Below are positions 10,824 to 60,650 of a stretch of DNA of 64,000 nt, piece by piece; the stretch's first letter is position 1; each line of letters begins with the position of its first letter. The position numbers and the translations under genes were made by a program. The notes beneath the pieces were generated by a model. That model ran no database searches. It saw nothing but the letters and a program-made list of their open reading frames with translations, and was not told the origin of the DNA. The stretch is taken from contig NZ_JACWIJ010000002.1 of assembly GCF_017811175.1 (NCBI RefSeq), forward strand, positions 1,984,001 to 2,048,000, in the 5' to 3' direction. The DNA is from Melaminivora jejuensis (GTDB lineage: Bacteria > Pseudomonadota > Gammaproteobacteria > Burkholderiales > Burkholderiaceae_C).

Positions 10824-12961
10824 GCGGCAGCTCCTTCGCCGCGTGCGGCACGCGCATCGGCGGTCAGTTGCAACGACGGTGCGCGGCGCACCAGGCTATC
10901 GAGCTGGTAGATGCTGGCAACCACAGGCTCAGGGATGGCGCCGCCTGCGGCAGCGGCGATCTGCACCTGTGTGCGGTTGCTCAGGCGCTCGGCAGGCAGC
11001 TGCGTCAATTCACCTGCCGGCTTGCCGGTGGCAGCGCCCAGCACGTCCTGCGAGGTCTCATAATCCACGCCTTCGATGCCCATCAGGTTGGCCAGCACAC
11101 GCAGCACCTTCCAGGCGGGACGTGTCTCGCCCAGGGGGCGGGCGGCGGCATGGAAGCTCTGCACGCGGCCTTCGGCATTGACGAAAGTGCCCGAGGTTTC
11201 GGTGAATGGCGCGATGGGCAGCAGCACGTCGCTGAATTCCATGTTGGCCTTGAAGGGACTCAGGGTCACGACCATGTCCACCTGGCCGAGCTTTTCAGCC
11301 GCAGCGGCGCCCAGGGCCGAGTCGTATTGCGGCTCGGTGTTGATCAGTAGCAGCGCCTTGAGATCGCCCTGGAGCATCTGCGCGGCGTTGTAACCTTGCG
11401 CCTGCGGCTGGACACCGATGAACTGCGCGCCCACGGTATTGGCCGCTTCGGTCAGGTAGCCGACTGCAGCGCCGGTGTGTTCACCCAGCCACTGCGCCAG
11501 GGCCAGCAGTTGCGAGGCCTGCGCGTGATGCGCGGCGCCATTGCCCAGCAAGATGACCTTGCGTTCACCAGCCAGCAGTGCCTTGGCGATGGCGCCGGCT
11601 TCTGCGCTGGCCTCGATGCCAGCCACCGGGGCGGCGACTCCCTTCTCGCCAGCCACGGCTGCAGCCACTTGCGCCAGCTGCCCGGCCCAGCCGGCAGCGG
11701 GTGCCAGCAGCGTGTGCGCCACCGGCATGGCCCAGTCGTATGCTACTGTATTAATAGCTGCCACCGCACAGCCGGTGCGGGCCGACTGGCGAATTCGCTG
11801 CGCAAACAGCGGATGATCCTTGCGGAGGTTGGAGCCCACGACCAGCACGGCTTGCAGATTGCTCAAGGCGGCAATCGGCAGGCCCAGCCAGCGCACGCCT
11901 TCTGCCTGGGTGAACTCGGCGTGGCGCAGGCGGTAGTCGATGTTGTCGCTGCCCAGGCCGCGCACCAGCCGGCCGGCCAGGTACAGCTCTTCCAGCGTGC
12001 TATGCGGGCTGACCAACGCGCCGATGGCTTCGCTGCCATGATCCTTGGTCACGCAGCGCAGGCCGTTGGCCACATATTCGAGGGCCGTCTGCCAGTCCAC
12101 TTCCTGCCACTGACCGCCCTGCTTGAGCATGGGACGCGTCAGGCGCTCGGGGCCGTTCAGGGCCTCGTAGGAGAAGCGGTCGCGGTCGGCGATCCAGCAC
12201 TCGTTGACCTCTTCGTTCTCGAAGGGCACGACGCGCATCACGCGGTGGTTCTTGACCTGAACGATCAGGTTGGCACCCGTGGAGTCGTGCGGGCTGACCG
12301 ACTTGCGGCGCGACAGCTCCCAGGTGCGGGCGCTGTAGCGAAAAGGCTTGCTGGTCAGCGCGCCCACCGGGCACAGGTCGATCACGTTGCCCGACAGCTC
12401 GGAGTCCACGGTGTCGCCGACCACGGTGGTGATCTCGGCATGTTCGCCGCGATTGACCATGCCGAGTTCCATGATGCCGGCGATCTCCTGGCCGAAGCGC
12501 ACACAGCGCGTGCAGTGGATGCAGCGCGCCATCTCTTCCATCGAGATCAGCGGGCCGACATCCTTGTGCGGCACGGTGCGTTTTTCCTCGCCGTAGCGCG
12601 AGCTGCTGGCGCCATAGCCCACGGCCAGATCCTGCAGCTGGCATTCGCCGCCTTGGTCGCAGATGGGGCAGTCCAGCGGATGGTTGATGAGCAGGAACTC
12701 CATCACCGACTGCTGCGCCTTGATGGCCTTGTCGCTCTTGGTGCGCACGATCATGCCCTGCGTCACGGGCGTGGCGCAGGCGGGCATGGGCTTGGGGGCT
12801 TTCTCGATGTCCACCAGGCACATGCGGCAGTTGGCGGCAATCGACAGCTTCTTGTGATAGCAAAAATGCGGGATGTAGGTGCCAGCCTTGTCGGCTGCAT
12901 GCATGACCATGCTGCCTTCGGCGACCTCTACCTTCTTGCCGTCCAGTTCAATTTCAACCAT
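10820..12961 (-). CDS. nuoG: NADH-quinone oxidoreductase subunit G
   Basis: 713-residue Fe-S subunit of the peripheral arm. Cluster ligands are visible in order: the [2Fe-2S] set [17 protein letters not shown] with a fourth Cys in PMPACATP, the His/Cys set [19 protein letters not shown], and [16 protein letters not shown]; a molybdopterin-oxidoreductase-like domain without molybdenum chemistry follows from about residue 225. Unusual: codons around residues 399-407 ([10 protein letters not shown]) are AT-rich (ATT AAT ACA GTA GCA) in a high-GC gene, and the DNA there (11742-11767) matches the dispersed intergenic repeat of this genome at 23 of 26 positions. The frame is intact through it. Confidence 0.97.
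11742..11767 (+). repeat. Intragenic remnant of the dispersed repeat, inside nuoG
   Basis: GCTACTGTATTAATAGCTGC followed by CACCGC. It differs at only three positions from the reverse complement of 22485-22510 in the pnp leader. It is read in frame by nuoG on the other strand. Such similarity in an AT-rich island of a GC-rich gene is best explained by an old repeat copy tolerated in the coding sequence. Confidence 0.6.
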
Positions 12962-12976
12962 ATGCGTCTGGCCTCG

Positions 12977-14329
12977 TCAGGCGGCTGCGGCCTGCCTGCC
13001 GGCGGCCTCGATCTTGGCGACGAACTCGTGCCGGAAATGCTTGATCATGGCGCGCACCGGCATGGCCGCTGCGTCACCCAGGGCGCAAATGGTGCGGCCC
13101 ATGATGTTGAATGCCACTGAATCCAGCAGCTCGATGTCCTCGGGCCGACCCTGGCCATGCTGGATGCGATCGACCACGCGCCACAGCCAGCCCGTGCCCT
13201 CGCGGCAGGGCGTGCATTGGCCGCACGACTCATGCATGTAGAAGTAGGACAGGCGCAGCAGCGACTCGACCATGTCGCGCGAGTCGTCCATGACGATGAC
13301 CGCGCCCGAGCCCAGCATGGAGCCGGCCTTGGCGATGGAGTCATAGTCCATGGTGCATTCCATCATGATGGAAGCCGGCAGGACGGGGGACGACGAGCCG
13401 CCCGGGATCACCGCCTTGAGCTGGCGCCCCTGGCGCACGCCCCCGGCCAGCTCCAGCAGCTTGGGAAACGGCGTGCCCATGGGCACTTCGTAGTTGCCCG
13501 GCTTTTCCACATCGCCCGAGACCGAGTAGATCTTGGTGCCGCCGTTGTTGGGCTTGCCGCACTCCAGGTAGGCCTGGCCGCCGTGGCGGATGATCCAGGG
13601 CACCGCCGCGAAGGTCTCGGTGTTGTTGATGGTGGTCGGCTTGCCGTAGAGGCCGAAGCTGGCGGGAAACGGCGGCTTGAAGCGCGGCTGGCCCTTCTTG
13701 CCTTCCAGCGATTCGAGCAGTGCAGTTTCCTCGCCGCAGATGTAGGCGCCGAAGCCGTGGTGGGCGTGCAGCTGGAAGCTGAAACTGCTGCCCAGGATGT
13801 TGTCGCCCAGGTAGCCGGCGGCGCGGGCCTCTTCGAGGGCTGCCTCGAAGCGCTCATAGACCTGGAAGATCTCGCCGTGAATGTAGTTGTAGCCCAGGCT
13901 GATGCCCATGGCATACGCCGCAATCGCCATGCCTTCGATGACGATGTGCGGGTTGTACATGAGGATGTCGCGATCCTTGCAGGTGCCGGGCTCACCCTCG
14001 TCGGAGTTGCACACCAGGTGCTTTTGCCCCGGAAACTGGCGCGGCATGAAACTCCACTTCAGGCCCGTGGGAAAGCCCGCGCCGCCACGGCCGCGCAACG
14101 CCGACTCCTTCACGGTGGCGATAACCTGCTCCTGCGTCAGGCCCTCGCCGCCGTCAATGGCCAGAATCTTGCGCAGCGCCGCATAGCCGCCGCGTGCCTC
14201 GTAGTCCTTGAGGCCCCAGTTCCTGCCGTCCAGGCCGGCATAGATCTGCGGCTCGATATGCCGGCCATGAAAGCAGGTCTCCAGGCCGGTGGCCTGGAAC
14301 TGCTGCAGCAGTTGTGCGACCGCGCTCAT
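12977..14329 (-). CDS. nuoF: NADH-quinone oxidoreductase subunit F
   Basis: 450-residue subunit that binds NADH, FMN and the N3 [4Fe-4S] cluster. It shows the NADH/FMN site [33 protein letters not shown], and the cluster motif [15 protein letters not shown] with a fourth Cys in RTICALGD. The ATG at 14329 overlaps the nuoE stop by 4 bp, which fixes the start; the longer frame upstream is a shadow of nuoE. It is 15 bp upstream of nuoG. Confidence 0.97.
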
Positions 14330-14817
14330 ACCTGGCCCTCCGCAGCACGCAGGCCATCCACCAGCTGGTCGAGCTTGTCGCCGTCCATGAAGCTGCACAT
14401 ATTGCGGTCGTTGACCAGCATGGCCGGCGCATCGGCGCAGGCACCCAGGCATTCGCACTGCTGCAGCGTGAACATGCCGTCTGCCGTGGTTTCGCCCATC
14501 TTGATGCCCAGCCGTGCTTCCAGGTGGCGCAGCGTCTCGACACCGCCGCGCAGCTGGCATGGCAAATTGGTGCATACGGCCAGCTTGAACTTGCCCACCG
14601 GCTGCTGGTTGTACATGTTGTAGAAAGTGGTGACTTCATGCACCGCGATCTCAGGCATGTCCAGGTACTGGGCGATCTCGGCCTCGGCAGCCTGCGTGAT
14701 GTGGCCCTGTTCCTGCTGCACGATGGCCAAGCAGGCCATGACGGCAGACTGCTTCTGCTCGGCCGGGTACTTGGCTACTTCGCGGGCGAAGCGCTCGCGG
14801 GTTGCTTGCGTGATCAT
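14326..14817 (-). CDS. nuoE: NADH-quinone oxidoreductase subunit E
   Basis: 163-residue thioredoxin-fold subunit holding the N1a [2Fe-2S] cluster. Ligands appear as CTNLPC and, about 36 residues later, CECLGAC-type (here [12 protein letters not shown]). The N-terminal helical bundle begins [18 protein letters not shown]. Start and stop both overlap neighbours by 4 bp (nuoD stop at the start, nuoF start at the end), indicating tight translational coupling nuoD-nuoE-nuoF. Confidence 0.96.
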
Positions 14818-16067
14818 CGATCGATTTCTCCAAACACGATGTCCAGCGTGCCCAGGATGGCCACGGCGTCGGCGATCATGTGGCCGCGCGTCATCTCGTC
14901 GAGCGCTGCCAGATGGGCAAAGCCGGGCGCGCGGATCTTCAGGCGATAGGGTTTGTTGGCGCCGTCGCTGATCATGTAGATGCCGAATTCACCCTTGGGG
15001 TGCTCCACCGCGGCGTAGGCCTCGCCCTCGGGCACGCGAAAGCCCTCGGTGAAGAGCTTGAAATGGTGGATCAGATCCTCCATGCCGCTCTTCATGCGCT
15101 CGCGCGGCGGCGGGGCGATCTTGTGGTTGTCCACGATGACCGGGCCGGGATTGGCGCGCAGCCAGTCCACACACTGCTTGATGATGCGGTTGGACTGGCG
15201 CATCTCGGCCACGCGCACCAGGTAGCGGTCGTAGCTGTCGCCGGTCACGCCGACCGGGATGTCGAAGTCCAGCCGGTCATAGACCTCGTAGGGCTGCTTC
15301 TTGCGCAGATCCCAGGCGATGCCCGAGCCGCGCAGCATGGGGCCGGTCATGCCCAGGCTCAGTGCGCGCTCGGGACTGACCACGCCAATGCCCACGGTGC
15401 GCTGCTTCCAGATGCGGTTGTCGGTGAACAGCACCTCGTACTCGTCCACGCACTTCGGGAAGCGCTGCGTGAAGTCGTCGATGAAGTCCAGCAGCGAGCC
15501 GCGGCGGTTTTCGTTCATCAGCTCCAGCGAGCGCGCGTTGCGCACCTTGCTGGCCTGGTACAGCGCCATGCTGTCGGGCAGGTCGCGGTACACCCCGCCC
15601 GGACGGAAGTAGGCCGCGTGCATGCGCGCGCCGGACACCGCCTCATACATGTCGAACAGGTCTTCACGCTCGCGGAAGGTGTAGATCAACATGGTCGAGC
15701 TGCCGCAGTCGTTGCCGTGCGAACCCAGCCACATGAGGTGGTTCATGATGCGCGTGATCTCGGCGAACATCACGCGGATGTACTGCGCACGCAGCGGCAC
15801 CTCGATGCCCAGGAGTTTTTCGATAGCCAGGCAGTAGGCGTGCTCGTTGCACATCATCGAGACGTAATCCAGCCGATCCATGTAGGGCAGCGACTGGAGA
15901 TAGGTCTTGTGCTCGGCCAGTTTTTCGGTGGCACGGTGCAGCAGACCGACGTGCGGATCGGCGCGCTGCACGACCTCGCCGTCGAGTTCCAGCACCAGGC
16001 GCAGCACGCCGTGCGCCGCCGGGTGCTGCGGCCCGAAGTTCAGGGAGTAGTTCTTGATTTCAGCCAT
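14814..16067 (-). CDS. nuoD: NADH-quinone oxidoreductase subunit D
   Basis: 417-residue 49-kDa-type subunit that forms the quinone-reduction pocket with NuoB and NuoH. The start [20 protein letters not shown] contains the quinone-site histidine loop, and [18 protein letters not shown] and [14 protein letters not shown] follow. ATG at 16067 chosen; 27 upstream in-frame codons are spacer. It is 28 bp downstream of nuoC and overlaps nuoE by 4 bp. Confidence 0.97.
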
Positions 16068-16095
16068 GGGTCGATCACCTGGACGCTGGCGCGCT

Positions 16096-16722: not shown

Positions 16723-16735
16723 CGAGTCGTCTCCC

Positions 16736-17215: not shown

Positions 17216-17245
17216 CTTTCGATCCTTTGTGCAGCCGCGCGGCGT

Positions 17246-17605: not shown

Positions 17606-17680
17606 GTGGGCCTGCTCACCGTTGAAAAGCCGCCTTGCCCGTACCGCGCTGCGGCTCAGGTAAGGCGGCCCTTATGTGAT

Positions 17681-18286: not shown

Positions 18287-18305
18287 GTTTCTTTCAACTC
18301 CTGAA

Positions 18306-18330
18306 TTAATAGCTGCAGACGCTTGTCAGG
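18306..18330 (+). repeat. Partial dispersed repeat at the 3' end of tpiA
   Basis: TTAATAGCTGCAGACGCTTG followed by TCAGG, the left half of the window-wide repeat. The tpiA stop codon (18326-18328) lies within it. Confidence 0.6.
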
Positions 18331-19081
18331 AGCCGGCTGCAGCGATGATTTGCAGAAAATCCTGGGCCTTGAGCGAGGCTCCACCCACCAGGCCGCCGTC
18401 GATATCGCCCTGGGCCAGCAATTCGGCGGCATTGGCCGCATTCATGCTGCCGCCGTACAGCAGCGGCACGCGCGCCGCGGCACTGGTGGCCGCTGCCAGC
18501 TGGGCGCGCAGCACGGCGTGGACTTCCTGCGCCTGCTCGGGCGTGGCGGTGCGGCCCGTGCCGATGGCCCAGACCGGCTCGTAGGCCACGACGATCTCGC
18601 TGATGCAGTGGCCGTTGGCCTGGATCACGGCAGCCAGCTGGCGCCGCACCACGTCCATGGTCTGGCCGGCCTCGCGTTCGGCCAGCGTCTCGCCGACGCA
18701 GACGATGGGCGTGATGCCGGCAGCCAGCGCCTTCTGTGCCTTGGCGGCTACGGTCGCGTCGCTCTCGCCGTGGTACTGGCGGCGCTCAGAATGGCCGACC
18801 AGCACGTAGCGCGCGCCAAAGTCGCGCAGCATGGCAGCCGATACCTCCCCGGTGTAGGCGCCACCGTCGTGCTGCGACACATCCTGCGCGGCCAGCCCGA
18901 TCGGCGTACCAGAGACCAGCGCCTGCGCCTGCGCCAGATAGGGCGCCGGCACGGCCACGGCGATGGCGCAGATCGGCTGCGTGCCGGCCAGGCCAGCACG
19001 CAAGGCCGCCAGCAGGGCCTCGTTGGCTGCTAGGCTGCCGTTCATCTTCCAGTTGCCGGCAATCAGTTTTTGCTTGGACAT
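18326..19081 (-). CDS. tpiA: Triosephosphate isomerase
   Basis: 251-residue TIM-barrel enzyme interconverting dihydroxyacetone phosphate and glyceraldehyde 3-phosphate in glycolysis and gluconeogenesis. Active-site features: GNWKMNG (Lys), [10 protein letters not shown] (His) and [13 protein letters not shown] (Glu), plus phosphate loop [14 protein letters not shown] at 19081 chosen over GTG one codon upstream. Its start shares one base with the stop of the preceding oxidoreductase gene (TGATG), indicating coupling. Confidence 0.96.
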
Positions 19082-20088: not shown

Positions 20089-20110
20089 GGCAGTCCCTTC
20101 ATTGAGCATC

Positions 20111-20165
20111 AAAAACGACTGAAACGCTTGCCCAACAAGCGTTGACAGCTCTTTTATTGATAGCA
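20111..20165 (-). repeat. Dispersed palindromic repeat between pnp and quinone oxidoreductase
   Basis: The core on the minus strand is GAGCTGTCAACGCTTG, then TTGGG, then CAAGCGTT. AACGCTTG (20123-20130) and CAAGCGTT (20136-20143) form a perfect 8-bp stem with a 5-nt loop. It begins right after the pnp stop. Confidence 0.8.
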
Positions 20166-20166: not shown

Positions 20167-22401
20167 TCAGGCATCTGCGGAACCGGCTGCGTCCTGGCCA
20201 TTGCTGTCACGGCGCTCATCGCGACGGTCATCGCGGCGGTCGTCGCGACGCTCGCGACGCTCGCCCCGATCGTGGCGCTCACCGCGCTCGGGACGCTCCA
20301 TGCCGGCAGGGCGCTCGGTCAGCGCCTTGAGCGACAGCTTGACGCGGCCCTTCTCGTCCGTCTCCAGCACCTTGACGCGCACGACCTGGCCTTCCTTGAG
20401 GTAGTCGTTCACGTTCTCCACGCGCTCGTGGGCGATCTGGCTGATGTGCAACAGGCCGTCCTTGCCGGGCAGCAGGTTGATGAGGGCGCCGAAGTCCAGG
20501 ATCTTGGTGACCGGGCCTTCGTAGATCTTGCCGACCTCGACCTCTGCCGTCAGCTCCTCAATGCGGCGGCGCGCCTCGTCGGCACGCGCTGCCTCGGTGG
20601 CGGCGATGGTGATGGTGCCGTCCTCCTCGATGTTGATCTGCGTGCCGGTCTCCTCGGTGAGCTGGCGGATGGTGGCGCCGCCCTTGCCGATCACGTCGCG
20701 GATCTTCTCGGGGTTGATCTTCATGGTGTAGAGCTTGGGCGCGAAGCTGGAGATCTCCGTGCGTGCCTCGCCCATGGCTTCCTGCATCTTGGCCAGGATG
20801 TGCATACGCGCTTCCTTGGCCTGGGCCAGGGCGACTTCCATGATCTCGCGCGTGATGCCCTGGATCTTGATGTCCATCTGCAGCGCCGTGATGCCGCCCG
20901 TGGTGCCGGCGACCTTGAAGTCCATGTCGCCCAGGTGATCCTCATCGCCCAGGATGTCGGTCAGCACGGCAAAGCGGTTGCCGTCCTTGATCAGGCCCAT
21001 GGCGATGCCGGCCACGTGCGCCTTCATGGGCACGCCGGCGTCCATCAGCGACAGGCAGCCGCCGCAGACCGAGGCCATGGAGGACGAGCCGTTGGATTCG
21101 GTGATCTCGGACACCACGCGGATGGTGTAGGGGAACTCGTCCTTGGAAGGCAGCGCGGCGATCAGCGCGCGCTTGGCCAGGCGGCCGTGGCCGATCTCGC
21201 GGCGCTTGGTCGAGCCCATGCGGCCCACTTCGCCGGTGGCAAAGGGCGGCATGTTGTAGTGGAACAGGAAGCGATCCTCGAACTCGCCGGCCAGCGCATC
21301 AATGCGCTGCGCGTCGCGCTCCGTGCCCAGCGTGGTCACCACCAGCGCCTGCGTCTCGCCGCGCGTGAACAGGGCCGAGCCGTGCGTGCGCGGCAGCAGC
21401 GAGCTGCGGATCTCGATGGGGCGCACGGTGCGCGTGTCGCGGCCATCGATGCGCGGCTCGCCGGCCAGGATCTGGCTGCGCACGATCTGCGCCTCGATGT
21501 CGAACAGGAGGGCTTCGACCTTCACTTGATCGAACTCGGCGCCCTCGTCTTTGAGGCTTTGCAGCACAGAGGCTGAGGCCTCGCGCAGCGCCTGGGTGCG
21601 CGCCTGCTTGCTGCGGATCTGGTAGGCGGCGCGCAGTTTTTCTTCGGCCAGCTGGGTGACCTTGGCAATGAAGGCCTCGTCCTTGGCCGGGGCCTGCCAA
21701 TCCCACACCGGTTTGCCGGCATCACGCACCAGCTCATGGATGGCCTCGATGGCCACGCGGCCCTGCTCGTGGCCGAAGACCACGGCGCCCAGCATCACGT
21801 CCTCGGGCAGCTGCTCGGCCTCGGACTCGACCATCAGCACGGCGGCTTCGGTGCCGGCAACGACCAGATCCAGGCTGGAATTCTTGCGCTCGGTCTGGCC
21901 GGGGTTGAGCACGTATTCACCGTTGACATAGCCCACGCGCGCGGCGCCGATAGGGCCATTGAACGGGATGCCCGACACGGACAGGGCGGCGCTCACGGCG
22001 AGCATGGCAGCGATGTCGGCGTCCACCTCCGGGTTCAGCGAGATGGTGTGGATGACCACATGCACCTCGTTGTAGAAGCCCTCGGGAAACAGCGGGCGGA
22101 TCGGGCGGTCGATCAGGCGGCTGGTGAGTGTCTCCAGCTCGCTGGGTTTGGCTTCGCGCTTGAAGAAGCTGCCGGGGATCTTGCCAGCGGCGTAGGTCTT
22201 CTCGATGTAGTCCACCGTCAGCGGGAAGAAGTCCTGCCCCGGCTTGGCACTCTTGGATGCGACCACGGTGGCCAGCACCACGGTGTCGTCGATGTTGACG
22301 AGGACGGCGCCGCTGGCCTGGCGGGCGATCTCGCCGGTCTCCATGGTGACCGTGTGCTGGCCCCACTGGAAGGTCTTGGTGACTTTGTTGAACATCGTCA
22401 T
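20167..22401 (-). CDS. pnp: Polyribonucleotide nucleotidyltransferase (PNPase)
   Basis: 744-residue phosphorolytic 3'-5' exoribonuclease, part of the RNA degradosome. Domains in order: RNase PH-like 1, helical linker, RNase PH-like 2 ([20 protein letters not shown]), KH (about 555-610, [19 protein letters not shown]) and S1 (about 622-690, [20 protein letters not shown]). After S1 there is a highly charged tail of about 45 residues built from RDDRR/ERRE-like units, encoded by near-repeated CG-rich triplets. ATG at 22401 is preceded by AGGAG six bases upstream. rpsO lies directly upstream on the same strand, the classical rpsO-pnp order. Confidence 0.97.
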
Positions 22402-22416
22402 GGTTTGCTCCTGAAA

Positions 22417-22514
22417 AAATAGCTGCTCGCGCTTGAGCAGCAAGCTTTTGGAGGTCAAACAGACCGCGATGCCATTCCAGGCAAGCGCTGGCAGCTATTA
22501 AAAAAGTAGCTACA
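22417..22514. repeat. Two half-copies of the dispersed repeat in the pnp leader
   Basis: A forward half (AATAGCTGCTCGCGCTTG, about 22417-22446, ending CAAGCTTTTGGAGG) and an inverted half (22479-22514, AGGCAAGCGCTGGCAGCTAT then TAAAAAAGTAGCTA). The second is the closest match to the nuoG remnant. Together they occupy most of the leader between the rpsO terminator and the pnp ribosome-binding site. Confidence 0.7.
22422..22441 (-). promoter_or_regulatory. Hairpin just upstream of the pnp ribosome-binding site
   Basis: GCTGCTC (22422-22428) and GAGCAGC (22435-22441) form a perfect 7-bp stem with a 6-nt loop, about 15 nt from the pnp Shine-Dalgarno. In E. coli a leader hairpin at this place is cut by RNase III and mediates PNPase autoregulation. 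That this one has the same role is inference. Confidence 0.45.
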
Positions 22515-22584
22515 TGACTTCAGCACTGGCTTGGAATGACACAGCTTCGCTCTGTCTGACGGGTCTCCAAAGGGGATGGGTGAA

Positions 22585-22623
22585 GTAAAAAACGCCTGAG
22601 CCGGTGCATCCAACTCAGGCGTT
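22585..22623 (-). terminator. Rho-independent terminator after rpsO
   Basis: Perfect 10-bp stem AACGCCTGAG / CTCAGGCGTT (22591-22600 with 22614-22623), 13-nt loop, followed on the minus strand by TTTTTT. It should end the short rpsO transcript, with read-through or a second promoter feeding pnp. Confidence 0.88.
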
Positions 22624-22640
22624 GCGGGCGAAGGCGCTGC

Positions 22641-30706: not shown

Positions 30707-31459
30707 ATGACCCCTGCCCCAGCTCCCTTTGCGCGCAGCGCCGGTCGCGCCGCCGATGCCCTGCGCGCCGTGCGCCTGACACGCGGCTACACCCTGCACG
30801 CCGAAGGTTCGGTGCTGGTCGAATTCGGTCGCACGCGCGTGCTGTGTACCGCCTCGGTCGAAGAAAAGGTACCGCCGCACCGCCGGGGCAGCGGCGGCGG
30901 CTGGGTCACCGCCGAATACGGCATGTTGCCGCGCGCCACGCACGCGCGCAGCGACCGCGAGGCCGCACGCGGCAAGCAAAGCGGGCGCACGCAGGAGATC
31001 CAGCGCCTGATCGGGCGCAGTCTGCGCGCCGTGTTCGATCTGCAGGCCCTGGGCGAGCGCACCATCACCCTGGACTGCGACGTGCTGCAGGCCGACGGCG
31101 GCACGCGCACCGCTGCCATCACCGGCGCCTGGGTCGCGGCACATGACGCCGTGAGCGCGCTGCTGGCCGCCGGCAAGCTGGCCGCCTCGCCCATCACCGA
31201 CGCCGTGGCCGCCGTCTCCGTAGGCATGGTGCAGGGCGCGGCGCTGCTCGATCTGGACTACCCCGAGGACGTGGCCTGCGATACCGACATGAACGTGGTG
31301 ATGACCGGCGCCGGGCACTACGTGGAAGTGCAAGGCACGGCCGAGGGCGCCGCCTTTGCCCGCCGCGAACTCGATGCGCTGCTGAACCTGGCCGAGGGCG
31401 GCATCACCCAATTGGTCGCACTGCAGCGCCAGGCACTCGTTGAAAAACTACTAATTTGA
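30707..31459 (+). CDS. rph: Ribonuclease PH
   Basis: 250-residue phosphorolytic exoribonuclease that trims tRNA 3' ends. It shows [39 protein letters not shown] and [20 protein letters not shown], then [20 protein letters not shown]. It lies 69 bp after the phosphatase gene. The final codons and TGA (31457-31459) run into a copy of the dispersed repeat, so the tail VEKLLI is partly repeat-encoded. Confidence 0.95.
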
Positions 31460-31500
31460 TAGCTGCAACCGCTTGTCCCACAAGACTTTCAGCCCGATTT
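31446..31500 (+). repeat. Dispersed repeat at the 3' end of rph
   Basis: CTACTAATTTGATAGCTGCA then ACCGCTTGTCCCACAAGACT then TTCAGCCCG. It contains the rph stop codon. Confidence 0.8.
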
Positions 31501-31516
31501 GACCATTATTTCAGAT

Positions 31517-32116: not shown

Positions 32117-32133
32117 CCCACCCTGCTTGCTCT

Positions 32134-32184
32134 CAAAAAAGATAGCTGCCAACGCTTGCTAGACAAGGGTTTTCAGGCAAAAAG
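32134..32184 (+). repeat. Dispersed repeat between rdgB and hemW
   Basis: AAAAAAGATAGCTGCCAACG then CTTGCTAGACAAGGGTTTTC then AGGCAAAAAGA, one of the fullest copies. Confidence 0.85.
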
Positions 32185-32195
32185 ACCCTTTTTTT
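32165..32195 (+). terminator. Probable terminator after rdgB formed by the repeat
   Basis: AAGGGT (32165-32170) pairs with ACCCTT (32185-32190), extended by TTT/AAA across a bulge, followed by a T-run through 32195. The right half of the repeat supplies the upstream arm. Confidence 0.55.
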
Positions 32196-49048: not shown

Positions 49049-49660
49049 ATGATCAGATTGATGGTGGGCCTGGGCAACCCCGGGCCGGAATACGAGGACA
49101 CGCGCCACAACGCGGGCTTTGCGTGGATCGACCAAGTGGCCAGCCAGCTCAAGGTGCAGCTCGCGCCCGAGCGCAGCTACTGGGGCCTGGCGGGGCGCGC
49201 CAATGTGCAGGGCCAGGCGCTGTGGCTGCTCCAGCCCCAGACCTACATGAACCTGTCGGGCAAATCGGTGGCCGCGCTGGCGCGCTTTTTCAAGATCGCA
49301 CCCGATGAAATCCTGGTGGCGCACGACGAGCTGGACTTCGAGCCCGGCACGGTCAAGCTGAAAAAAGGCGGCAGCCACGGCGGCCACAACGGCCTGCGTG
49401 ACATCCACGCGCAGCTGGGCAGCGACTACTGGCGCCTGCGCATCGGCATCGGCCACCCGGGTCTCAAGCACGAGGTCGTGGGCTGGGTGCTCAAGCGCCC
49501 CATGCAGACCGAGCGCGAGCGCATCGAGGACAGCATCGCCCACGCCCTGAAAGCCCTGCCGGTGCTGCTGTCGGGCGACATGGACAAGGCCGTGCAGCAG
49601 ATCAACACGCTCAAGCCGCCCCGGCCCAAGCCGCCGCGCCCGCCAGCAGCACCAGTTTGA
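49049..49660 (+). CDS. pth: Peptidyl-tRNA hydrolase
   Basis: 203-residue enzyme that recycles peptidyl-t[22 protein letters not shown] contains Asn10 and catalytic His20; [31 protein letters not shown] and GGHNGLRDI follow. ATG at 49049 used; ATG at 49040 (three codons longer) is equally possible. The Pro/Lys-rich tail ([13 protein letters not shown]) is typical of the family here. Convergent with the ferredoxin gene. Confidence 0.95.
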
Positions 49661-49716
49661 TTTAAGAAAGATAGCTACCAGCGCTTGTCTGGCAAGGCTT
49701 TGCGGCCAAAAAGACC
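49661..49716 (+). repeat. Dispersed repeat between pth and ferredoxin
   Basis: TTTAAGAAAGATAGCTACCA then GCGCTTGTCTGGCAAGGCTT then TGCGGCCAAAAAGACC; starts at the pth stop. Confidence 0.85.
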
Positions 49717-49721
49717 AAAAA

Positions 49722-50003
<282 letters not shown>

Positions 50004-52947: not shown

Positions 52948-52950
52948 GCT

Positions 52951-53003
52951 ATGTTTTGTATAGCTGTCAGCGCTTGCTGGACAAGGGTTTCAGGCCTTTT
53001 TCA
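52951..53003 (+). repeat. Dispersed repeat inside the ABC importer operon
   Basis: TTTTGTATAGCTGTCAGCGC then TTGCTGGACAAGGGTTTCAG then GCCTTTTTC, located between the two ATPase genes and starting 3 bp after the first stop. Confidence 0.85.
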
Positions 53004-53027
53004 TCCAGAAAACCGAGGGCTTGCCCG

Positions 53028-53828: not shown

Positions 53829-53852
53829 CGTGCTGTAGTAAAAAGACGCCGG

Positions 53853-53871
53853 GCGCCGCATGGTGCGGCGC
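53853..53871 (+). promoter_or_regulatory. Intercistronic hairpin before the binding-protein gene
   Basis: GCGCCGCA, TGG, TGCGGCGC: a perfect 8-bp stem with a 3-nt loop and no T-run. Possibly an mRNA-stability or partial-termination element separating ATPase and binding-protein expression. Confidence 0.45.
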
Positions 53872-53920
53872 AGCATGGAACAACCACGGCACACGAAAGA
53901 CTTCACAAGGAGATCCGCCC

Positions 53921-55417: not shown

Positions 55418-55419
55418 GC

Positions 55420-56838
55420 ATGGCCGAGTTGCACGAACTGTCCGCGCGCGAGCTGCTGGCGGGCTACCGCACGCGCGCGTTCTCGCCGGTCGAGGCCACG
55501 CGCGCGGTGCTGGCGCGCATCGAGCGCTGGGAGCCGCACCTGCGCGCCACCTGGCTGCTGCGCCCCGACAAGGCGCTGGCCCAGGCGCGCGAGAGCGAAG
55601 CGCGCTGGCTGCGCAGCGCGCCCTGCGGGCCGCTCGATGGCGTGCCGGCCACGCTCAAGGACAACATCGCCACGGCGGGCGACCCGACGCCGCTGGGCAC
55701 GGCCGCCACCGAGCTGCGGCCCGCCCCCGCCGACGCCCCGCCCGCCGCGCGCCTGGCCGAGGCCGGCGCGGTGCTGGTGGCCAAGACCACCATGCCCGAC
55801 TTCGGGATGCTGTCGTCGGGCCTGTCGTCGTTTCACGCGCTGGCGCGCAACCCCTGGGACTTGTCCAAAGGCCCGGGCGGCTCCAGCAGCGGCGCCGGCG
55901 CGGCAGCAGCAGCCGGCTATGGGCCGCTGCACGTCGGCACGGACATCGGCGGCTCGGTGCGCCTGCCGGCCTCCTGGTGCGGCATCTTCACGCTCAAGCC
56001 CAGCCTGGGGCGCATCCCGATCGACCCGCCCTACGTGGGCCGCGCCGCCGGCCCCATGACGCGCAGCGTGGGCGATGCCGCCCTGCTGATGCAGGTGCTG
56101 AGCCGCCCCGACGCGCGCGACAGCATGAGCCTGCCGGCGCAGGACATCGCCTGGGACGACTGGGCCAGCTGGGCCGACCGCCCCGGACGGCTGCGCGGCC
56201 TGCGCCTGGGCCTGCTGCTGGACGCCGGCTGCGGCCTGCCGGTGCAGCCCGAGGTGCGCGCCGCCGTCCTGGCCGCCGCGCGGCTGCTGGAGAGTGCCGG
56301 CGCCAGCATCGTGCCCCTGCGCCCCTTCCTGACGCGCACCATGCTCGACGGCATGGATCACTTCTGGCGGATGCGCTCGTACATGGATTTGCGCACCCTC
56401 GGCGCGCAGCAGCAGGCGCGCGTGCTGCCTTTCATCCGCGACTGGGCCATGAGCGCCGCCGCCTTCGACGCCGCGCACGTCTATGAGGCCAGCCAGCAGT
56501 TCCACGCCACGCGCGTGGCCACGGTGCAGGCCTGCGCGCAGGTGGACTATGTGCTGTCGCCGGTCGCGCCCATCACGGCCTTTGCCGCCGAGCTGCCCGC
56601 GCCGACCAACGACCCGCTGCGCCCGCTGGAGCACATCGCCTTCACCGTGCCCTACAACATGTCGGAGCAGCCGGCGGCCTCGGTCAACTGCGGCTGGAGC
56701 AGCACCGGCCTGCCCATCGGCCTGCAGATCGCCGGCCAGCGCTTCGACGACCTGGGCGTGCTGCGCCTGGCCCACGTCTTCGAGCAACTGCGCGGGCCAC
56801 AGCGCCCCTGGCCCGAACCGCCTGCAGCCGAAAAATAA
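55420..56838 (+). CDS. Amidase (amidase signature family)
   Basis: 472-residue hydrolase with the Ser-cisSer-Lys triad: Lys80 in ATLKDN, Ser155 in GPGGSSSG and nucleophile Ser179 in GTDIGGSVRLPAS. No GatB/GatC partner is present, so a GatA role in tRNA amidation is unlikely; it more probably hydrolyses a small amide brought in by the importer. Starts 2 bp after the binding-protein stop, so it is in the operon. No signal peptide, hence cytoplasmic. Substrate unknown. Confidence 0.9.
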   Translation: MAELHELSARELLAGYRTRAFSPVEATRAVLARIERWEPHLRATWLLRPDKALAQARESEARWLRSAPCGPLDGVPATLKDNIATAGDPTPLGTAATELRPAPADAPPAARLAEAGAVLVAKTTMPDFGMLSSGLSSFHALARNPWDLSKGPGGSSSGAGAAAAAGYGPLHVGTDIGGSVRLPASWCGIFTLKPSLGRIPIDPPYVGRAAGPMTRSVGDAALLMQVLSRPDARDSMSLPAQDIAWDDWASWADRPGRLRGLRLGLLLDAGCGLPVQPEVRAAVLAAARLLESAGASIVPLRPFLTRTMLDGMDHFWRMRSYMDLRTLGAQQQARVLPFIRDWAMSAAAFDAAHVYEASQQFHATRVATVQACAQVDYVLSPVAPITAFAAELPAPTNDPLRPLEHIAFTVPYNMSEQPAASVNCGWSSTGLPIGLQIAGQRFDDLGVLRLAHVFEQLRGPQRPWPEPPAAEK

Positions 56839-56849
56839 TAGTCAAATCG

Positions 56850-56908
56850 GCTGGAAATCCAATACTGGCAAGCGCTTACAGCTATCATTTTTGATAACTG
56901 TCAGCGCT
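56850..56908. repeat. Inverted pair of dispersed-repeat fragments between amidase and lysE-like gene
   Basis: A near-complete minus-oriented copy (about 56850-56886; on the minus strand GATAGCTGTAAGCGCTTGCC) abuts a forward fragment, GATAACTGTCAGCGCT (56893-56908). The lysE-like stop codon (56901-56903) is inside the second fragment. Confidence 0.78.
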
Positions 56909-57626
56909 GTGCCGTAGCCAGGCGCAGCGCCAGAGCGAGAAAGACCAGGCCTGCCGTGCGGTTGAGCAGGCGCTGCGCCCGTGCCGAGCGCTGCAGCAGC
57001 ACGCCGAACGCCCCGGAAAAGCACGCGATGGCGCCAAAGACCAGCAGCGTGGCCAGCATGAAGACCAGGCCCAGCAGCATGATCTGCGGCGCCAGCGGGC
57101 CACGCTGCGGATCGGCAAACTGCGGCAGGAAGGCCAGGAAGAAGATCAGCACCTTGGGGTTGGTCAGGTTCATGACCACGCCGCGCCCGACCATGCGCCA
57201 GGCGCTGGTGCGCGGCTGGGCTGGCGCGCCGGTGCCGGAGGTGCCGGACGTGCCGGACGTGCCGGACGTGCCGGACGCATTGGACATATTGGCCGGTGTC
57301 AGCGGCTCCTGGCTCCCCTTGCCCTCGGCGTCCGCGCTGGCCGGCGCCCGCAGCGCCCCCCAGGCCAGCCAGGCCAGATAGGCCGCGCCGCACAGCTTGA
57401 GCGCCGTGAACGCCACGCTGGAGGCGGCAAACACCGCGGCCAGCCCCAGCGCCACGGCCGCCGTGTGCCCCACCAGCCCCAGGCACAGGCCCAGCACCAC
57501 GCACATGCCGGCGCGCCAGCCGCGCTGGGCGGACTGCAGCAGCACGAAGATATTGTCCGGGCCGGGCGTGAGCGCCAGCAGCGCGGCAACGCCGAAAAAT
57601 GCGATCAGGGACTGTGCGGAGGGCAT
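56901..57626 (-). CDS. LysE/RhtB-family amino-acid exporter
   Basis: 241-residue inner-membrane protein with six helices; exports amino acids or homoserine lactones. Start MPSAQSLIAFFGVAALLALTPGPDNIFVLL has the TPGPD motif; MNLTNPKVLIFFLAFLPQF is the second hallmark. The loop between helices 3 and 4 contains a run of Ser-Gly-Thr repeats encoded by a 9-bp tandem array. ATG at 57626. Divergent from the 202-aa gene, convergent with the amidase. Confidence 0.9.
   Translation of the reverse strand: MPSAQSLIAFFGVAALLALTPGPDNIFVLLQSAQRGWRAGMCVVLGLCLGLVGHTAAVALGLAAVFAASSVAFTALKLCGAAYLAWLAWGALRAPASADAEGKGSQEPLTPANMSNASGTSGTSGTSGTSGTGAPAQPRTSAWRMVGRGVVMNLTNPKVLIFFLAFLPQFADPQRGPLAPQIMLLGLVFMLATLLVFGAIACFSGAFGVLLQRSARAQRLLNRTAGLVFLALALRLATAQR
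57232..57285 (-). repeat. 9-bp tandem repeat in the lysE-like gene
   Basis: Five copies of GTGCCGGAC (first with G at the last position) plus a degenerate sixth, on the plus strand. It encodes SGT units in a loop, so copy-number change alters loop length in steps of three residues without shifting the frame. Confidence 0.85.
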
Positions 57627-57759
57627 GGAGACCAGTTGGGGCAGGGCCAGGAAAGCCGGCCATTGTGCCCGCCCGCGCCCGCACAATAGCCTCTTCGCTG
57701 CCCCGCCCTCATGCTGCCGGGGCGCTCCGCCCTGCCGACTGATTTCGCTCCTGCACCCG

Positions 57760-58368
57760 ATGGATCCTCTTGTCTTGCTTTTGCTTGCCGCCACCGGCTC
57801 CTGGCTGATCAACGGCCAGCAGCAGCGCCAGCGCGTCGCCTTGCTGGCCCAGCACCTGGCGCCCTACCAGATCGAGCGCCTGATGCAGGACTTGACCCAG
57901 GGCTATCTGCGCGCCGTGGGCGAGGCCACGCCCGAGCGGCGCCAGCAGGTGCTGGACACGCTGGCCGGCGCCGAGACGCAGCTATGCGCGCAGTTCGAGC
58001 GCTTTGCCGCCGACTTCGCCCGCTTGCCGGCCGCCGCCACCCGCGTCAGCCGCCTGGCGCTGGGCCTGCCCTTTGCCACGCAGCTGCTGCCCGGTGCAAG
58101 CTTCGACATGCGCGCCCTGCTGACCGTCCACGCACAAGGCATCGCCCGGGCGGCACGCAACGAGGGTGGCCTGGCCGCGCGCGACCGCGCCTTCGTCATG
58201 ACGGCGGAGCTGCTGCTGATGCAGCACAGCTGCCACTGGTTCTGCAAGTCGCGCACCGTGGCCAGTGCCCGCGTGCTGGCGCGCCACCAGACACCACACG
58301 CCCAATTGGTGCAATCGGTGGCACCGGACACGCGCGCGGCCTATCTGGCACTGACCACGGGCGGCTGA
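57760..58368 (+). CDS. Conserved hypothetical protein, 202 aa
   Basis: Unrecognised. It begins with a hydrophobic segment (MDPLVLLLLAATGSWLINGQ) that could be a signal anchor, then a largely helical Ala/Arg/Leu-rich body (RVALLAQHLAPYQIERLMQDL, TRVSRLALGLPFATQLLPGA) and a Cys/His cluster (LLMQHSCHWFCKSR). The HSCHWFC pattern could bind a metal, but no known domain is recognised. ATG at 57760; the open frame upstream is antisense to the lysE-like gene. Confidence 0.65.
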   Translation: MDPLVLLLLAATGSWLINGQQQRQRVALLAQHLAPYQIERLMQDLTQGYLRAVGEATPERRQQVLDTLAGAETQLCAQFERFAADFARLPAAATRVSRLALGLPFATQLLPGASFDMRALLTVHAQGIARAARNEGGLAARDRAFVMTAELLLMQHSCHWFCKSRTVASARVLARHQTPHAQLVQSVAPDTRAAYLALTTGG

Positions 58369-58511
58369 TCCGCACCTGCGGGCCGAGGGGACTGGTGCGC
58401 TGTGCAAGCCCCGGAACGCCCTGAACGCACCGCCACGGGCGCGCCCGCACGCTCACACACCTGCTTACATGCGGCACCGTCCTACCTGCACTCCTGCGGT
58501 GGGCTGCTTCA

Positions 58512-59255
58512 ATGCCTAGCCAAGCCATGACAGACCACCAACCGCCCCTCACCCCCGCCCCTTCCCCCTGCCGCGCCTGGATGGCCCTGGGCGTGCAGCA
58601 CGCCATCCTGGCGCGCGCCATGCCGGTGCTGCGCCATGACTTGGCAGGCCTGTTGACCATCATGCGCATGGGTGCCGTGGTGCTCAGGCGCCGCGCCGGC
58701 GATGCGGCCCAGGCAGCGGGCTCCGACACCCTGGCCCAGCAGCTGGAGCAGCAGGAAGAACACCTGGCCAGCCTGGCCGACAACGCCCGGCTGCTGCGCC
58801 ACTGGGATCTGCAAGGCCCGCACACGCCCGAGCCGCTGGCCGAGACCGCTGCCCTGGCACGCCGGCTGTCGCGCCCGCTGCTGGCCATGCGCGGCCTGGC
58901 GCTGGAGCTGCCTGCCGAAGGCACGCCCGCCCTGCCCGCCGCCCGCACGCCGCAGCAGCCGGTGCTGTGCCTGCTGCTGGGGGCCATCCACCTGCTGGCA
59001 GAAAATCCCGCCGGCGCACCCGCCGCCATCCACCTGCAGCCCCTGCCCGGGCGCGCCGCCGGCCTGCGCGTACAGGCCAGCGGCACCTGCCCGGACGCCC
59101 CGCCCGCCGCCGCCACGCCCGGTATGCCGCCGCTGGACGGCGCTGCCCTGGCCTTGCTGGCCGAACACGTCGGCGCCCAGCTGCGCTGCGGCCCGGACTG
59201 GGTGGAAATCGAGGCCCCTGCCGCTGCCCCGGACGCCCGCCCGGCAGCAGCCTAG
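58512..59255 (+). CDS. Histidine-kinase-like protein, degenerate
   Basis: 247 residues, no membrane segment. Residues 30-55 (ILARAMPVLRHDLAGLLTIMR) resemble the H-box of a dimerisation domain, with a His-Asp pair, followed by a helix with a coiled-coil look (LAQQLEQQEEHLASLADNAR). The C-terminal half has the spacing of an ATPase domain (LLLGAIHLLAENPAGAPAAIHLQ; LALLAEHVGAQLRCGPDWVEIEAP) but lacks clear N, G1 and G2 boxes. It may be a phosphotransfer or degenerate kinase relic. Start ATG 58512 or 58527. Convergent with the BLUF gene. Assignment tentative. Confidence 0.5.
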   Translation: MPSQAMTDHQPPLTPAPSPCRAWMALGVQHAILARAMPVLRHDLAGLLTIMRMGAVVLRRRAGDAAQAAGSDTLAQQLEQQEEHLASLADNARLLRHWDLQGPHTPEPLAETAALARRLSRPLLAMRGLALELPAEGTPALPAARTPQQPVLCLLLGAIHLLAENPAGAPAAIHLQPLPGRAAGLRVQASGTCPDAPPAAATPGMPPLDGAALALLAEHVGAQLRCGPDWVEIEAPAAAPDARPAAA

Positions 59256-59346
59256 CTCAGCCCGGGGCCGCGCTCCCGGCTGCGGGCCGCGCGGGGGCGA
59301 CGCCGTGCGCTGTGCGTTATGCGTTGTGCGCCGGGCCTGGGCAGCC

Positions 59347-59769
59347 TCAGGCGCGGCCGATGATGGATGCCGTGGCCATGAGTTCCTCCAGCAGCGCGAA
59401 CGACACCCGGCCCGAGGCGGCGTAGGGGTCGAACTCGGGCCGCTCGGAGTATTTGAGGACGATGGAGTGGTTCAGCCGGGCCAGATTGACCTGCCCCATA
59501 GTCCAGCCGCCGAAGCGCCGCTCGGAGATTTCCTCGAACGACAGCAGCTCCACATCCTTGTGGCGCGCGTCGCGCTGGATGTGGCCGAACAGCTCGCTCA
59601 CCGCCCGGCGTCCGCCCTCGATGGCTTGCAGGAAGACGCCGCCGCCGTGGCACAGCACCCCGGTGATGCCGCTGGCCGGGTTGTGCTGGCGCGACTGCGC
59701 CAGGATGGCTTCGATGGCGGCGGGGGACGTGTCCACCGCACGGCTGACGTAGAGCAGACGCACCAGCAT
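59347..59769 (-). CDS. BLUF-domain blue-light photoreceptor
   Basis: 140-residue, single-domain FAD-binding light sensor. The key residues are present with the spacing of AppA: Tyr7 (LLYVSRA), Asn30 (QHNPASGITGVL), Gln48 (FLQAIEGG), Trp89 and Met91 (GGWTM). No effector domain is fused, so output must go through a partner. It follows folE by 43 bp on the same strand, suggesting co-transcription. Target process unknown. Confidence 0.93.
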   Translation of the reverse strand: MLVRLLYVSRAVDTSPAAIEAILAQSRQHNPASGITGVLCHGGGVFLQAIEGGRRAVSELFGHIQRDARHKDVELLSFEEISERRFGGWTMGQVNLARLNHSIVLKYSERPEFDPYAASGRVSFALLEELMATASIIGRA

Positions 59770-59812
59770 GGCTCGGCCTCCTTGAAACGGCTGTGTTGCC
59801 TGACAGTGTGCG

Positions 59813-60550
59813 TCAGTTGCGCCCCGGGATGAGCGAGAGAAATTCGCGCCGCAGCGTAGGGTCGGTGAGAAACACGCCGCGCATGACCGAGTTGAGCATC
59901 TTGCTGTCCATCTCGCGCACGCCGCGCCAGGACATGCAAAAGTGGCTGGCCTCCATGACGATGGCCAGGCCGTCGGGCTGGGTCTTGTCCATGATCAGGT
60001 CGGCCAACTGCACCACGGCCTCCTCCTGGATCTGCGGGCGGCCCATGACCCAGTCCACCAGCCGCGCGTACTTGGACAGGCCGATGACGTTGGTGTGCTC
60101 GTTGGGCATGACGCCGATCCAGATCTTGCCGATGACCGGGCAGAAGTGGTGGCTGCAGGCGCTGCGCACGGTGATCGGGCCGACGATCATCAGCTCGTTG
60201 AGGCGCTCGGCGTTGGGGAACTCGGTGATGGGCGGCGCCTCGGCATAGCGGCCCTTGAACACCTCGTTGATGTACATCTTGGCCACGCGCCGCGCTGTGC
60301 TGCGCGTGTTGTGGTCGCCCTCGGTGTCGATGACCAGGCTGTCGAGCACGCCCTGCATCTTGGACTCCACCTCGTCGAGCAGCAGCTCCAGCTCGCCCGG
60401 CTCAATGAACTCGGCGATGTTGTCGTTGGCATGGCAGCGCTGGCGCGCGGCAGCCAGGCGCTGGCGGATACGCACGGAAACGGGCGTACCCTCCTCGGGC
60501 GCGGCGTGGTGCTCGGCGGCGGCAGTCAGATCAGGCAAAAGAGCAGACAT
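59813..60550 (-). CDS. folE: GTP cyclohydrolase I
   Basis: 245-residue enzyme for the first step of folate synthesis (GTP to dihydroneopterin triphosphate). Zinc ligands in SACSHHFCPVIG and MEASHFCMSWRGV, and NEHTNVIGLSKYARLVDWV and GRPQIQEEAVVQLAD are conserved. ATG at 60550 (MSALLPDLTAAAE). Precedes the BLUF gene; nudB, the next enzyme of the pathway, is 2.2 kb upstream on the same strand. Confidence 0.95.
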   Translation of the reverse strand: MSALLPDLTAAAEHHAAPEEGTPVSVRIRQRLAAARQRCHANDNIAEFIEPGELELLLDEVESKMQGVLDSLVIDTEGDHNTRSTARRVAKMYINEVFKGRYAEAPPITEFPNAERLNELMIVGPITVRSACSHHFCPVIGKIWIGVMPNEHTNVIGLSKYARLVDWVMGRPQIQEEAVVQLADLIMDKTQPDGLAIVMEASHFCMSWRGVREMDSKMLNSVMRGVFLTDPTLRREFLSLIPGRN

Positions 60551-60589
60551 GGGGCGGCATCGTAACAGTGAATGACACAACAGGTTTTT

Positions 60590-60650
60590 TTGGTGTTTTT
60601 GGCCTCAAACCCTTATGGGACAAGCGCTGAAAGCTATATAAAAGATAGTA
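60590..60650 (-). repeat. Dispersed repeat between clsB and folE
   Basis: On the minus strand ATATAGCTTTCAGCGCTTGT then CCCATAAGGGTTTGAGGCC then AAAAACACC. It fills much of the gap upstream of folE. Confidence 0.85.

Follow-up and report, generated by a model that had tools for sequence, protein, structure and literature searches.

The window analysed here, a 64,000-nt stretch of the genome of Melaminivora jejuensis (Comamonadaceae; genome G000), contains tpiA, pnp, rph, rdgB and hemW, and copies of a short palindromic repeat lie at or between these genes and in further convergent and tandem gaps (Table 1). A preliminary description of this DNA had listed eleven positions for the family, and profile and 20-mer searches identified element copies at all 11. 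Two of them, at 22417 and 22479, are indeed both real copies, but they turned out to be the halves of one ~104-bp dyad rather than separate elements. The same description had the repeats begin at 11742; the only match there, of 16.4 bits, falls within nuoG, where the protein sequence is conserved and free of indels; it was taken as a chance coding match and not as a family member. The 20-mer, with at most three mismatches, matched the window nine times, against 0.08 matches expected from 100 shuffles. A search of the window for RNA families at the gathering threshold returned only three tRNAs, and a known RNA family was therefore rejected as the identity of the element. Among the matches listed from the literature searched, which takes in few subscription papers, we found no published description of the family, though one may exist elsewhere.

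Table 1. Copies of the repeat in the 64,000-nt window
Feature	Coordinates	Strand	Basis
Copy at tpiA stop	18297..18361	+	profile match
Copy directly 3' of pnp	20100..20164	-	20-mer and profile match
~104-bp dyad, two inverted copies at 101-nt spacing, upstream of pnp	22407..22510	.	profile and dyad scoring
Copy between rph and rdgB	31447..31511	+	profile match and synteny
Copy between rdgB and hemW	32130..32194	+	20-mer match
Copy, convergent gap; top window match at 49.4 bits	39665..39729	+	20-mer and profile
Copy, convergent gap	49659..49723	+	20-mer and profile
Copy, tandem gap	52948..53012	+	20-mer and profile
Copy, convergent gap	56833..56897	-	20-mer and profile
Copy, tandem gap	60585..60649	-	20-mer and profile

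Read by eye, the left arm of the copy at the tpiA stop gives GCTAT..AGGAG on the minus strand, at the place expected for the Shine-Dalgarno sequence of the next gene, and the dyad upstream of pnp falls in the loop region of a pnp leader hairpin, likewise recognized by eye.

Anatomy and placement of the element

A seed profile was built from alignment A1 of the 11 listed sites and refined in rounds over the window and 60 stretches of 20 kb each (1.264 Mb in all). It produced 218 matches, with 0 in the reversed sequence control. Four of these sit on contig C1 (L063), whose sequence repeats a part of contig C2. The sample of ~1.24 Mb thus holds 214 non-duplicate copies, or ~640 by extrapolation to the whole genome; two scorings that covered only 40 of 331 and 150 of 3137 candidates were left out of all counts. 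Identity, pairing and folding tests used copies that scored above 20 bits and lay wholly within a stretch: 207 of them, or 203 unique ones in the pairing tests. All placement counts rest on gene calls made with a purpose-written script, not a standard annotator.

The unit is ~65 bp long. It opens with a small hairpin whose loop is AT-rich (GCTAY..ATAGC); behind this come an imperfect second hairpin and a T-rich tract. The inner CGCTTG...CAAGCG repeat of the preliminary description is present but not universal: in G000 the 3' arm mostly reads CAAGGG, which produces a G.G mismatch. In the sample, T accounts for 77-79% at positions 51-53, which makes the terminal NAAAAA the less common form. Close pairs are few (9 among the 214 copies), all of them facing, seven at exactly 101 nt and two at 60 nt; the seven 101-nt dyads score 29.6-45.9 bits, and the next best copy -20.0. 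Inverted doublets thus exist, but singlets dominate. The ~65-bp unit looks like the half-unit of a ~104-bp REPIN-like dyad, and this combination of hairpin and dyad agrees with the REP/BIME-like build proposed earlier. Facing copies were also considered as the ends of an autonomous element, and this was rejected: seven more widely spaced pairs, 0.77-1.87 kb apart, each enclose one or two called genes, identified for the pair in the window as tpiA and one more gene.

The check named in the preliminary description, conserved pairing between the arms, came out mixed. Within G000, the two arms of a copy match each other no more closely than arms shuffled between copies. No arm covariation was detected among the 203 unique copies, and there was little compensatory pairing in the same-genus genomes G001, G003 and G004. 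Compared with mononucleotide shuffles, hairpins are clearly more stable in G004 (mean MFE -15.8 versus -9.4) and G001 (-14.2 versus -6.7) and hardly so in G003 (-8.3 versus -7.1), with -9.8 versus -7.6 in G000. The G003 value means that a structural role cannot be universal.

The preference for gene 3' ends holds up well: copies occupy 42 of 101 convergent and 112 of 472 tandem gaps but only 5 of 135 divergent ones. By copy, tandem or convergent gaps hold 160 of the 214 and divergent gaps seven; a further 42 fall within called ORFs and five at stretch edges. The closeness to stop codons noted earlier was likewise confirmed: of the 160 copies in tandem or convergent gaps, 122 have a stop no more than 50 nt away and 142 have one no more than 100 nt away. 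Orientation relative to transcription in tandem gaps is neutral (57 same, 55 opposite). Terminator-like folding in either direction is commoner among copies than among shuffles (104/203 versus 41/609). Among convergent gaps of at most 350 nt that carry an element, 27/35 are terminator-like with the element counted and 2/35 outside it, compared with 22/47 element-free gaps. Like the neutral orientation, two results count against a gene-end role: across genera, gaps downstream of pnp that lack the element seldom have another terminator by our own criterion (4/40, with 15/28 where the element is present), and along the direction of transcription, terminator-like copies were not enriched in larger tandem gaps (14/52 versus 23/63).

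The copies inside ORFs were represented by 17 hand-chosen ones (14 unflagged, 3 flagged), and these mostly share one phase. In kdtA, the 21 residues at the element are present to 80% or more in 119 of the 120 listed relatives (the best 120 of 7,997 matched, query included), which means that an insertion, if any, is old. Solved structures of four other proteins have 8, 13, 5 and 8 extra residues at the element, with gaps counted by hand. Those residues fall in loops that are variable anyway. The idea that in-frame copies are insertions was set aside. Rickettsia palindromic elements (RPE) have copies inside open reading frames. Some copies of the present family resemble them in lying inside ORFs, mostly in one phase; unlike RPE, most are extragenic.

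Conserved sites and species-specific centres

The copies look old and, within the genus, appear to have descended in place. Nearest-paralogue identity has a median of 75% and a maximum of 86% among 207 copies, assembly duplicates aside, so that none of the near-identical copies expected from recent replication was seen. In a species comparison covering one region of 160-264 kb per genome, the G000 model alone found 13/13 G000 sites occupied in G004. With species models, the three comparisons gave 13/13, 13/14 and 16/17 G000 sites in common, with 0 in reversed controls, while 1, 2 and 2 sites occurred in the other species alone; orientation was the same at 28/28 scorable common sites. The syntenic rph-rdgB gap carries an element in 15 of 30 genomes examined, G000 included. 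The species models for G001, G003 and G004 were seeded from orthologous gaps, and a mixed model also used includes a single rph-rdgB gap sequence for each of seven genomes, so that the figures are biased in favour of detecting elements at such places. Sites are partly kept across genera as well, at the few gaps examined.

The high divergence between copies would suit neutral fossils of a dead element, an idea that is very improbable given this presence in half of the rph-rdgB gaps and largely refuted by a constraint test, for which only sites where each of two species has a single copy per orientation were used. At 13 orthologous G000-G004 pairs, the core (positions 14-17 and 23-28) is 99.2% identical and the remainder 60.8%, the latter itself exceeding the 47.5% obtained with shuffled partners (0/2000 shuffles). 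Core identity in non-orthologous G000-G004 copies is 97.1% (p=0.08), so the core test alone cannot part selection in place from homogenisation. The core is not kept in other dialects, falling to 81.2% with G003 and 71.5% with G001.

Centres differ between species in concert while the sites stay, a pattern not readily accounted for by ordinary mobile repeats. In 20 orthologous sets, chosen by the same single-copy rule, centre identity was 0.599 between paralogues (466 pairs) versus 0.514 between orthologues (73 pairs), and flanks showed the reverse trend (0.405 versus 0.544). Shuffling species labels within sites gave a centre identity of 0.500 (sd 0.0065) that never exceeded 0.525 in 300 shuffles, against the observed 0.599. 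In four more genera the same frame holds different centres (with 0 matches in reversed controls), and the CGCTTG core is common to several other genera.

On one account of how centres change together, which we consider rather unlikely, though it is the main rival to copying since a binder with drifting preference would give much the same pattern, centres would be candidate sites of a single trans-acting protein or RNA with lineage-specific preference, the selected sites following by point mutation. Such a binder would fit the TAGCT and CGCTTG blocks, 91-100% invariant in G000 amid variable neighbours, the more variable left core and better conserved right-arm motif of G003, and the 50 of 62 left-out copies that were assigned to the centre of their own species. 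Multi-base blocks of TT type (20 copies) and GC type (14 copies) in G000, however, are slightly easier to explain by copying than by independent point changes. The copies of the TT sub-variant are about as homogeneous as the others (0.675 versus 0.654), and a recent wave of copying is thus not shown.

RAYT and the question of mobility

REP-like repeats are mostly explained as transposase-driven populations (PMC3116915). The preliminary description had suggested a mobile element and a search for a RAYT-type transposase alongside it. Present mobility is not supported: no non-duplicate pair exceeds 86%, sites are common to same-genus species, and the RAYT model NF047646 has no match in G000 at E<=1; RAYT as a present driver there is likewise unsupported. 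Matches to the Y1 transposase (PF01797) in G000 are confined to a single interrupted gene in three pieces, which is followed by tnpB and of IS200/IS605 type (labels by eye). Copies lack strand bias relative to replication (56+/55- in positive-skew and 42+/51- in negative-skew stretches, p=0.48), so the lagging-strand insertion bias expected of single-strand transposition was not seen. Spread on plasmids or phages was likewise rejected, one window copy of a single dialect matching 2 of 72,556 plasmid and 0 of 50,697 phage records at E<=0.01.

Could the family nevertheless be an ordinary RAYT-mobilised REP/REPIN population, decaying after RAYT loss in G000? We find this unlikely. The dyad form exists, the RAYT model matches 176 of 200 family genomes at E<=0.001 (57 over the cut-off), and by eye element-like sequence follows the RAYT stop in many of 20 RAYT loci; scored with the G000 model, that sequence is strong only at locus L097 and modest at L103, and at L086 and L090 copies lie upstream of the RAYT domain. 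On the other hand, singlets dominate, and the core blocks are still intact in G000 without a RAYT match. The inverted pair bracketing RAYT is another motif (GGGGTCAGATT with 0 matches and ATCTGACCCC with 1 in the G000 sample). The CGCTTG pattern, which sees one dialect only, is absent from many genomes that have a RAYT match, and G114 has 53 pattern matches and no RAYT match. A gltB query also gave no match in G000, G003 and the fragmented draft G002. Given this and the two-protein tree (G004,(G001,(G000,G003))), one RAYT loss before the G000-G003 split is simplest, although independent losses are possible; yet G000 and G003 centres differ, and at least one centre change is probably later than the loss. 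It is possible, though less likely than not, that a RAYT-independent system of Comamonadaceae, either active short-tract conversion or a fast-evolving trans-acting binder, rewrites in concert the centres of hundreds of fixed gene-end elements; lineages, down to single species, would then have dialects of their own on an ancient common scaffold of positions.

Related systems and a proposed history

The reading to which we give an even chance is that of ancient REP-like gene-end elements, present in many Comamonadaceae and kept vertically, whose centres are rewritten within lineages by short-tract copying. REPIN-type spread probably established the family long ago, and there is no sign of present transposition in G000. 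Copies may have been retained as gene-end hairpins that work in either direction, in termination or in the protection of mRNA 3' ends. The centre of each lineage may have been rewritten by short-tract, non-reciprocal copying between dispersed copies.

The family resembles REP/BIME/REPIN and RAYT systems (PMC3116915) in its hundreds of dispersed palindromic copies with hairpins, mostly in gene gaps, and in some inverted pairs at fixed spacing. It differs in that no RAYT was found in G000, in having no near-identical copies and a majority of singlets, and in sites and orientation kept across species with a centre that is species-specific in concert. Six taxon names sought in two papers on such systems (PMC2817692, PMC3733652) did not occur there. 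BRE of Bordetella, 75-91 bp at full length, 69% G+C, often tandem and with at most 29 copies per genome, are also reported in Comamonadaceae and are usually intergenic (PMC3110155). They are alike in that habit and occurrence, but length, G+C, tandem arrangement and copy number in Bordetella set them apart, by description and not by sequence. DNA uptake sequences (DUS), whose dialects are described in PMC3630211, are enriched in Neisseriaceae by biased natural transformation and share with the present family an abundant motif whose form differs between species. As an explanation here they are very improbable: the unit is no short core but a hairpin-bearing element of ~65 bp, and it is strongly tied to gene 3' ends.

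The family parts position from sequence: sites and orientation stay across species, centres change together, and no RAYT was found in G000. Concerted evolution of tiny dispersed elements thereby becomes testable, and the element is a candidate for a common gene-end signal of Comamonadaceae.

Copies, anatomy and placement

The 20-mer on which the preliminary description was based has nine matches at no more than 3 mismatches, where 0.08 would be expected, and a profile seeded with the 11 listed sites and then iterated found 218 matches in a 1.264-Mb sample of the M. jejuensis genome (G000; 3.75 Mb, two contigs), with 0 in the reversed sequence. The observation of a dispersed repeat in the window therefore stands. 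Contig C1 duplicates a portion of C2, so that four of the 218 are counted twice: these copies (stretches L062 and L063) are identical including their flanks, and the assembly is redundant there. The remaining 214 extrapolate to about 640 copies per genome; a strict core pattern has 342 matches across the whole genome and 0 when read backwards. Two other repeats occur in the sample stretches L004-L062 and the window, AGAGCGTGTTTACGATC 15 times and a 30-mer starting CGATAGCACGGGCTATCG eight times; about 5 kb of this sequence is N.

Copies set in one register cover about positions 0-64, with GCTAC followed by an AT-rich loop, then GATAGCTGYCAG and CGCTTG, a short loop and CAAGGGTTTGAGGCC, and finally a T-rich tract, GAC and a further AT tract. 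TAGCT (13-17) and CGCTTG (23-28) are 91-100% invariant, and most other positions are variable. All nine close pairs face each other, spaced by exactly 101 nt in seven (a dyad of about 104 bp) and by 60 nt in two. The eleven copies originally listed did seed a real family, although two of them are halves of one dyad.

With gene calls from our own script, gaps of at least 40 nt and the duplicated stretch included, the element is carried by 42/101 convergent, 112/472 tandem and 5/135 divergent gaps; with duplicates removed, a stop lies no more than 50 nt away for 122 of the 160 copies in tandem or convergent gaps. The proposed proximity to stop codons, enrichment at gene 3′ ends and rarity in divergent gaps are all borne out. 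Tandem-gap copies follow transcription in 57 cases and oppose it in 55 (duplicates removed). Called ORFs contain 42 of the 214 copies. Among 28 re-examined, codon-position composition flagged 14 ORFs as doubtful and left 14 unflagged; 15 of the 17 listed cases share one reading phase, a pattern to which stop codons in the remaining phases would tend to lead.

A simple model finds terminator-like structure in 104/203 copies in either direction (80 forward, 42 reverse) and in 41/609 shuffles. Within convergent gaps of up to 350 nt, such structure is present in 27/35 element-bearing gaps with the element included versus 2/35 outside it, a contrast exaggerated because masking leaves less sequence, and in 22/47 element-free gaps. 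A putative gene-end role is plausible; against it stand the neutral orientation in tandem gaps, weak folding in the congeneric genome G003, the lack of enrichment of terminator-like copies in larger tandem gaps, and a terminator in only 4/40 element-free gaps downstream of pnp.

Features with coordinates and side observations
Feature	Location	Observation
Window	G000:C2:1984001-2048000
Dyad	window 22417 and 22479	two copies of one ~104-bp dyad
tpiA-secG gap (L202-L281)	window 18287-18325	left arm GCTAT..CAGGAGT in several genera, at the expected Shine-Dalgarno of the next gene (by eye)
pnp leader hairpin loop (L202-L281)	window 22396-22640	element-like sequence in G000 and several Comamonas records, plain loops elsewhere (by eye)
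IS200/IS605-type tnpA (L001-L003)	G000:C2:578622-583272	broken by another transposase gene, then tnpB (by eye)
3-deoxy-D-manno-octulosonic acid transferase gene	L019:7137-8489	in-frame element; variable residues there in the relatives listed
IncP plasmid pYKBP039 (L282)		match to the element, diverged (83%, 48 nt), close to an integrase gene and genes for drug resistance

Shared sites and lineage-specific centres

Contiguous regions were compared among G000 and three congeneric genomes, G004, G001 and G003. When only the G000 model was used, 13 G000 gaps bearing the element had a G004 counterpart, and every one of these counterparts carries it as well, in the same orientation in 8/8 scorable cases. 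The same model saw it in only 5/17 gaps in G003 and 3/14 in G001, a low yield that led us to recognise dialects: direct alignments reveal that in G003 and G001 the corresponding sites hold centres of a different spelling. Species models, seeded from orthologous gaps and hence favouring site sharing, gave 13/13, 13/14 and 16/17 shared sites, with 1, 2 and 2 further sites seen only in the other species; orientation is the same in 28/28, and reversed controls gave 0. Such sharing, together with a nearest-paralogue identity of 75% (median) that never exceeds 86% for any pair among 207 copies, duplicates aside, speaks against the mobility initially suggested, at least at present.

Identity between G000 and G004 orthologues is 99.2% in the core (positions 14-17 and 23-28) and 60.8% in the remainder of the element. 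Because the latter exceeds the 47.5% obtained with shuffled partners, the sequences indicate that copies descend in place. Constraint on the core is clear; its identity with shuffled partners is still 97.1%, which would fit site-by-site action or homogenisation alike.

Across 20 orthologous sets, centre identity is 0.599 between sites within one species and 0.514 between species at one site; flank identity runs the opposite way (0.405 versus 0.544). Shuffling species labels within sites gave a centre identity of 0.500 (sd 0.0065, largest 0.525 in 300 shuffles), and 50/62 copies were assigned to their own species with the tested copy left out. For G000 versus G003, the centre has no orthologue signal (38.2% versus 37.1% shuffled); the flanks do (62.9% versus 44.2%).

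The element in other genera

A mixed model, applied to 83-99 kb in each of four further genera that have 1-5 matches to the CGCTTG pattern, yielded 8, 8, 14 and 16 copies, whose centres are different but keep the frame; reversed controls gave 0. Since the CGCTTG pattern occurs in 46/200 family genomes, with at least 50 matches in 16 of them, the core is common to several genera, and dialects do not differ in every genus. Oryzisolibacter belongs to the Comamonadaceae.

Syntenic rph-rdgB gaps carry the element in 15/30 genomes, all in one orientation, with 0 in reversed gaps; 7 of these 30 sequences are in the mixed model. It also occurs in one orientation in 28/68 pnp-downstream and 11/79 tpiA-secG gaps, and in 28/80 rpsO-pnp gaps with orientation 24 versus 4, where dyads blur orientation (reversed controls 0 throughout). 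The names pnp, tpiA, rph, rdgB, hemW and nuoG come from protein matching; rpsO, secG and gltB are what we take the remaining genes to be.

RAYT, copying and known REP systems

The RAYT model (NF047646) matches 176/200 family genomes, over the cut-off in 57/200, and the RAYT gene precedes gltB in most loci read. A co-occurring RAYT-type transposase, a proposed check, was not found in G000, whose only PF01797 (Y1 transposase) matches are at L001-L003; RAYT-model matches in G002 and G003 are weak and partial, and a gltB query found nothing in G000, G002 or G003. Most of the loci L084-L103 have a RAYT-like gene immediately upstream of gltB; in many it is bracketed by an inverted motif, GGGGTCAGATTCCAATT, and in several an element-like sequence follows its stop. 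On the tree (G004,(G001,(G000,G003))), which was built from two proteins and has support of 0.92-0.99, the simplest history is a single RAYT loss before G000 and G003 diverged. As G000 and G003 centres differ, such a loss argues against RAYT having caused at least one centre change, with independent losses as the other possibility. Shared multi-base sub-variants hint at copying between copies; members of the largest sub-variant resemble one another no more closely than the remaining copies do, and copies have no replichore bias.

Among the papers listed by our literature searches, none describes this Comamonadaceae gene-end element. The Bordetella BRE is described (PMC3110155) as a longer repeat, 69% G+C and often tandem. 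REPIN elements and DUS dialects are treated in PMC3116915 and PMC3630211. The REP/BIME-like reading holds for anatomy and the dyad, but several REPIN traits are lacking in G000, where no RAYT and no recent copies were found and doublets are few among 214 copies. The element works like REP; what would be new relative to known REP elements is that its positions are conserved and its centres are lineage-specific.
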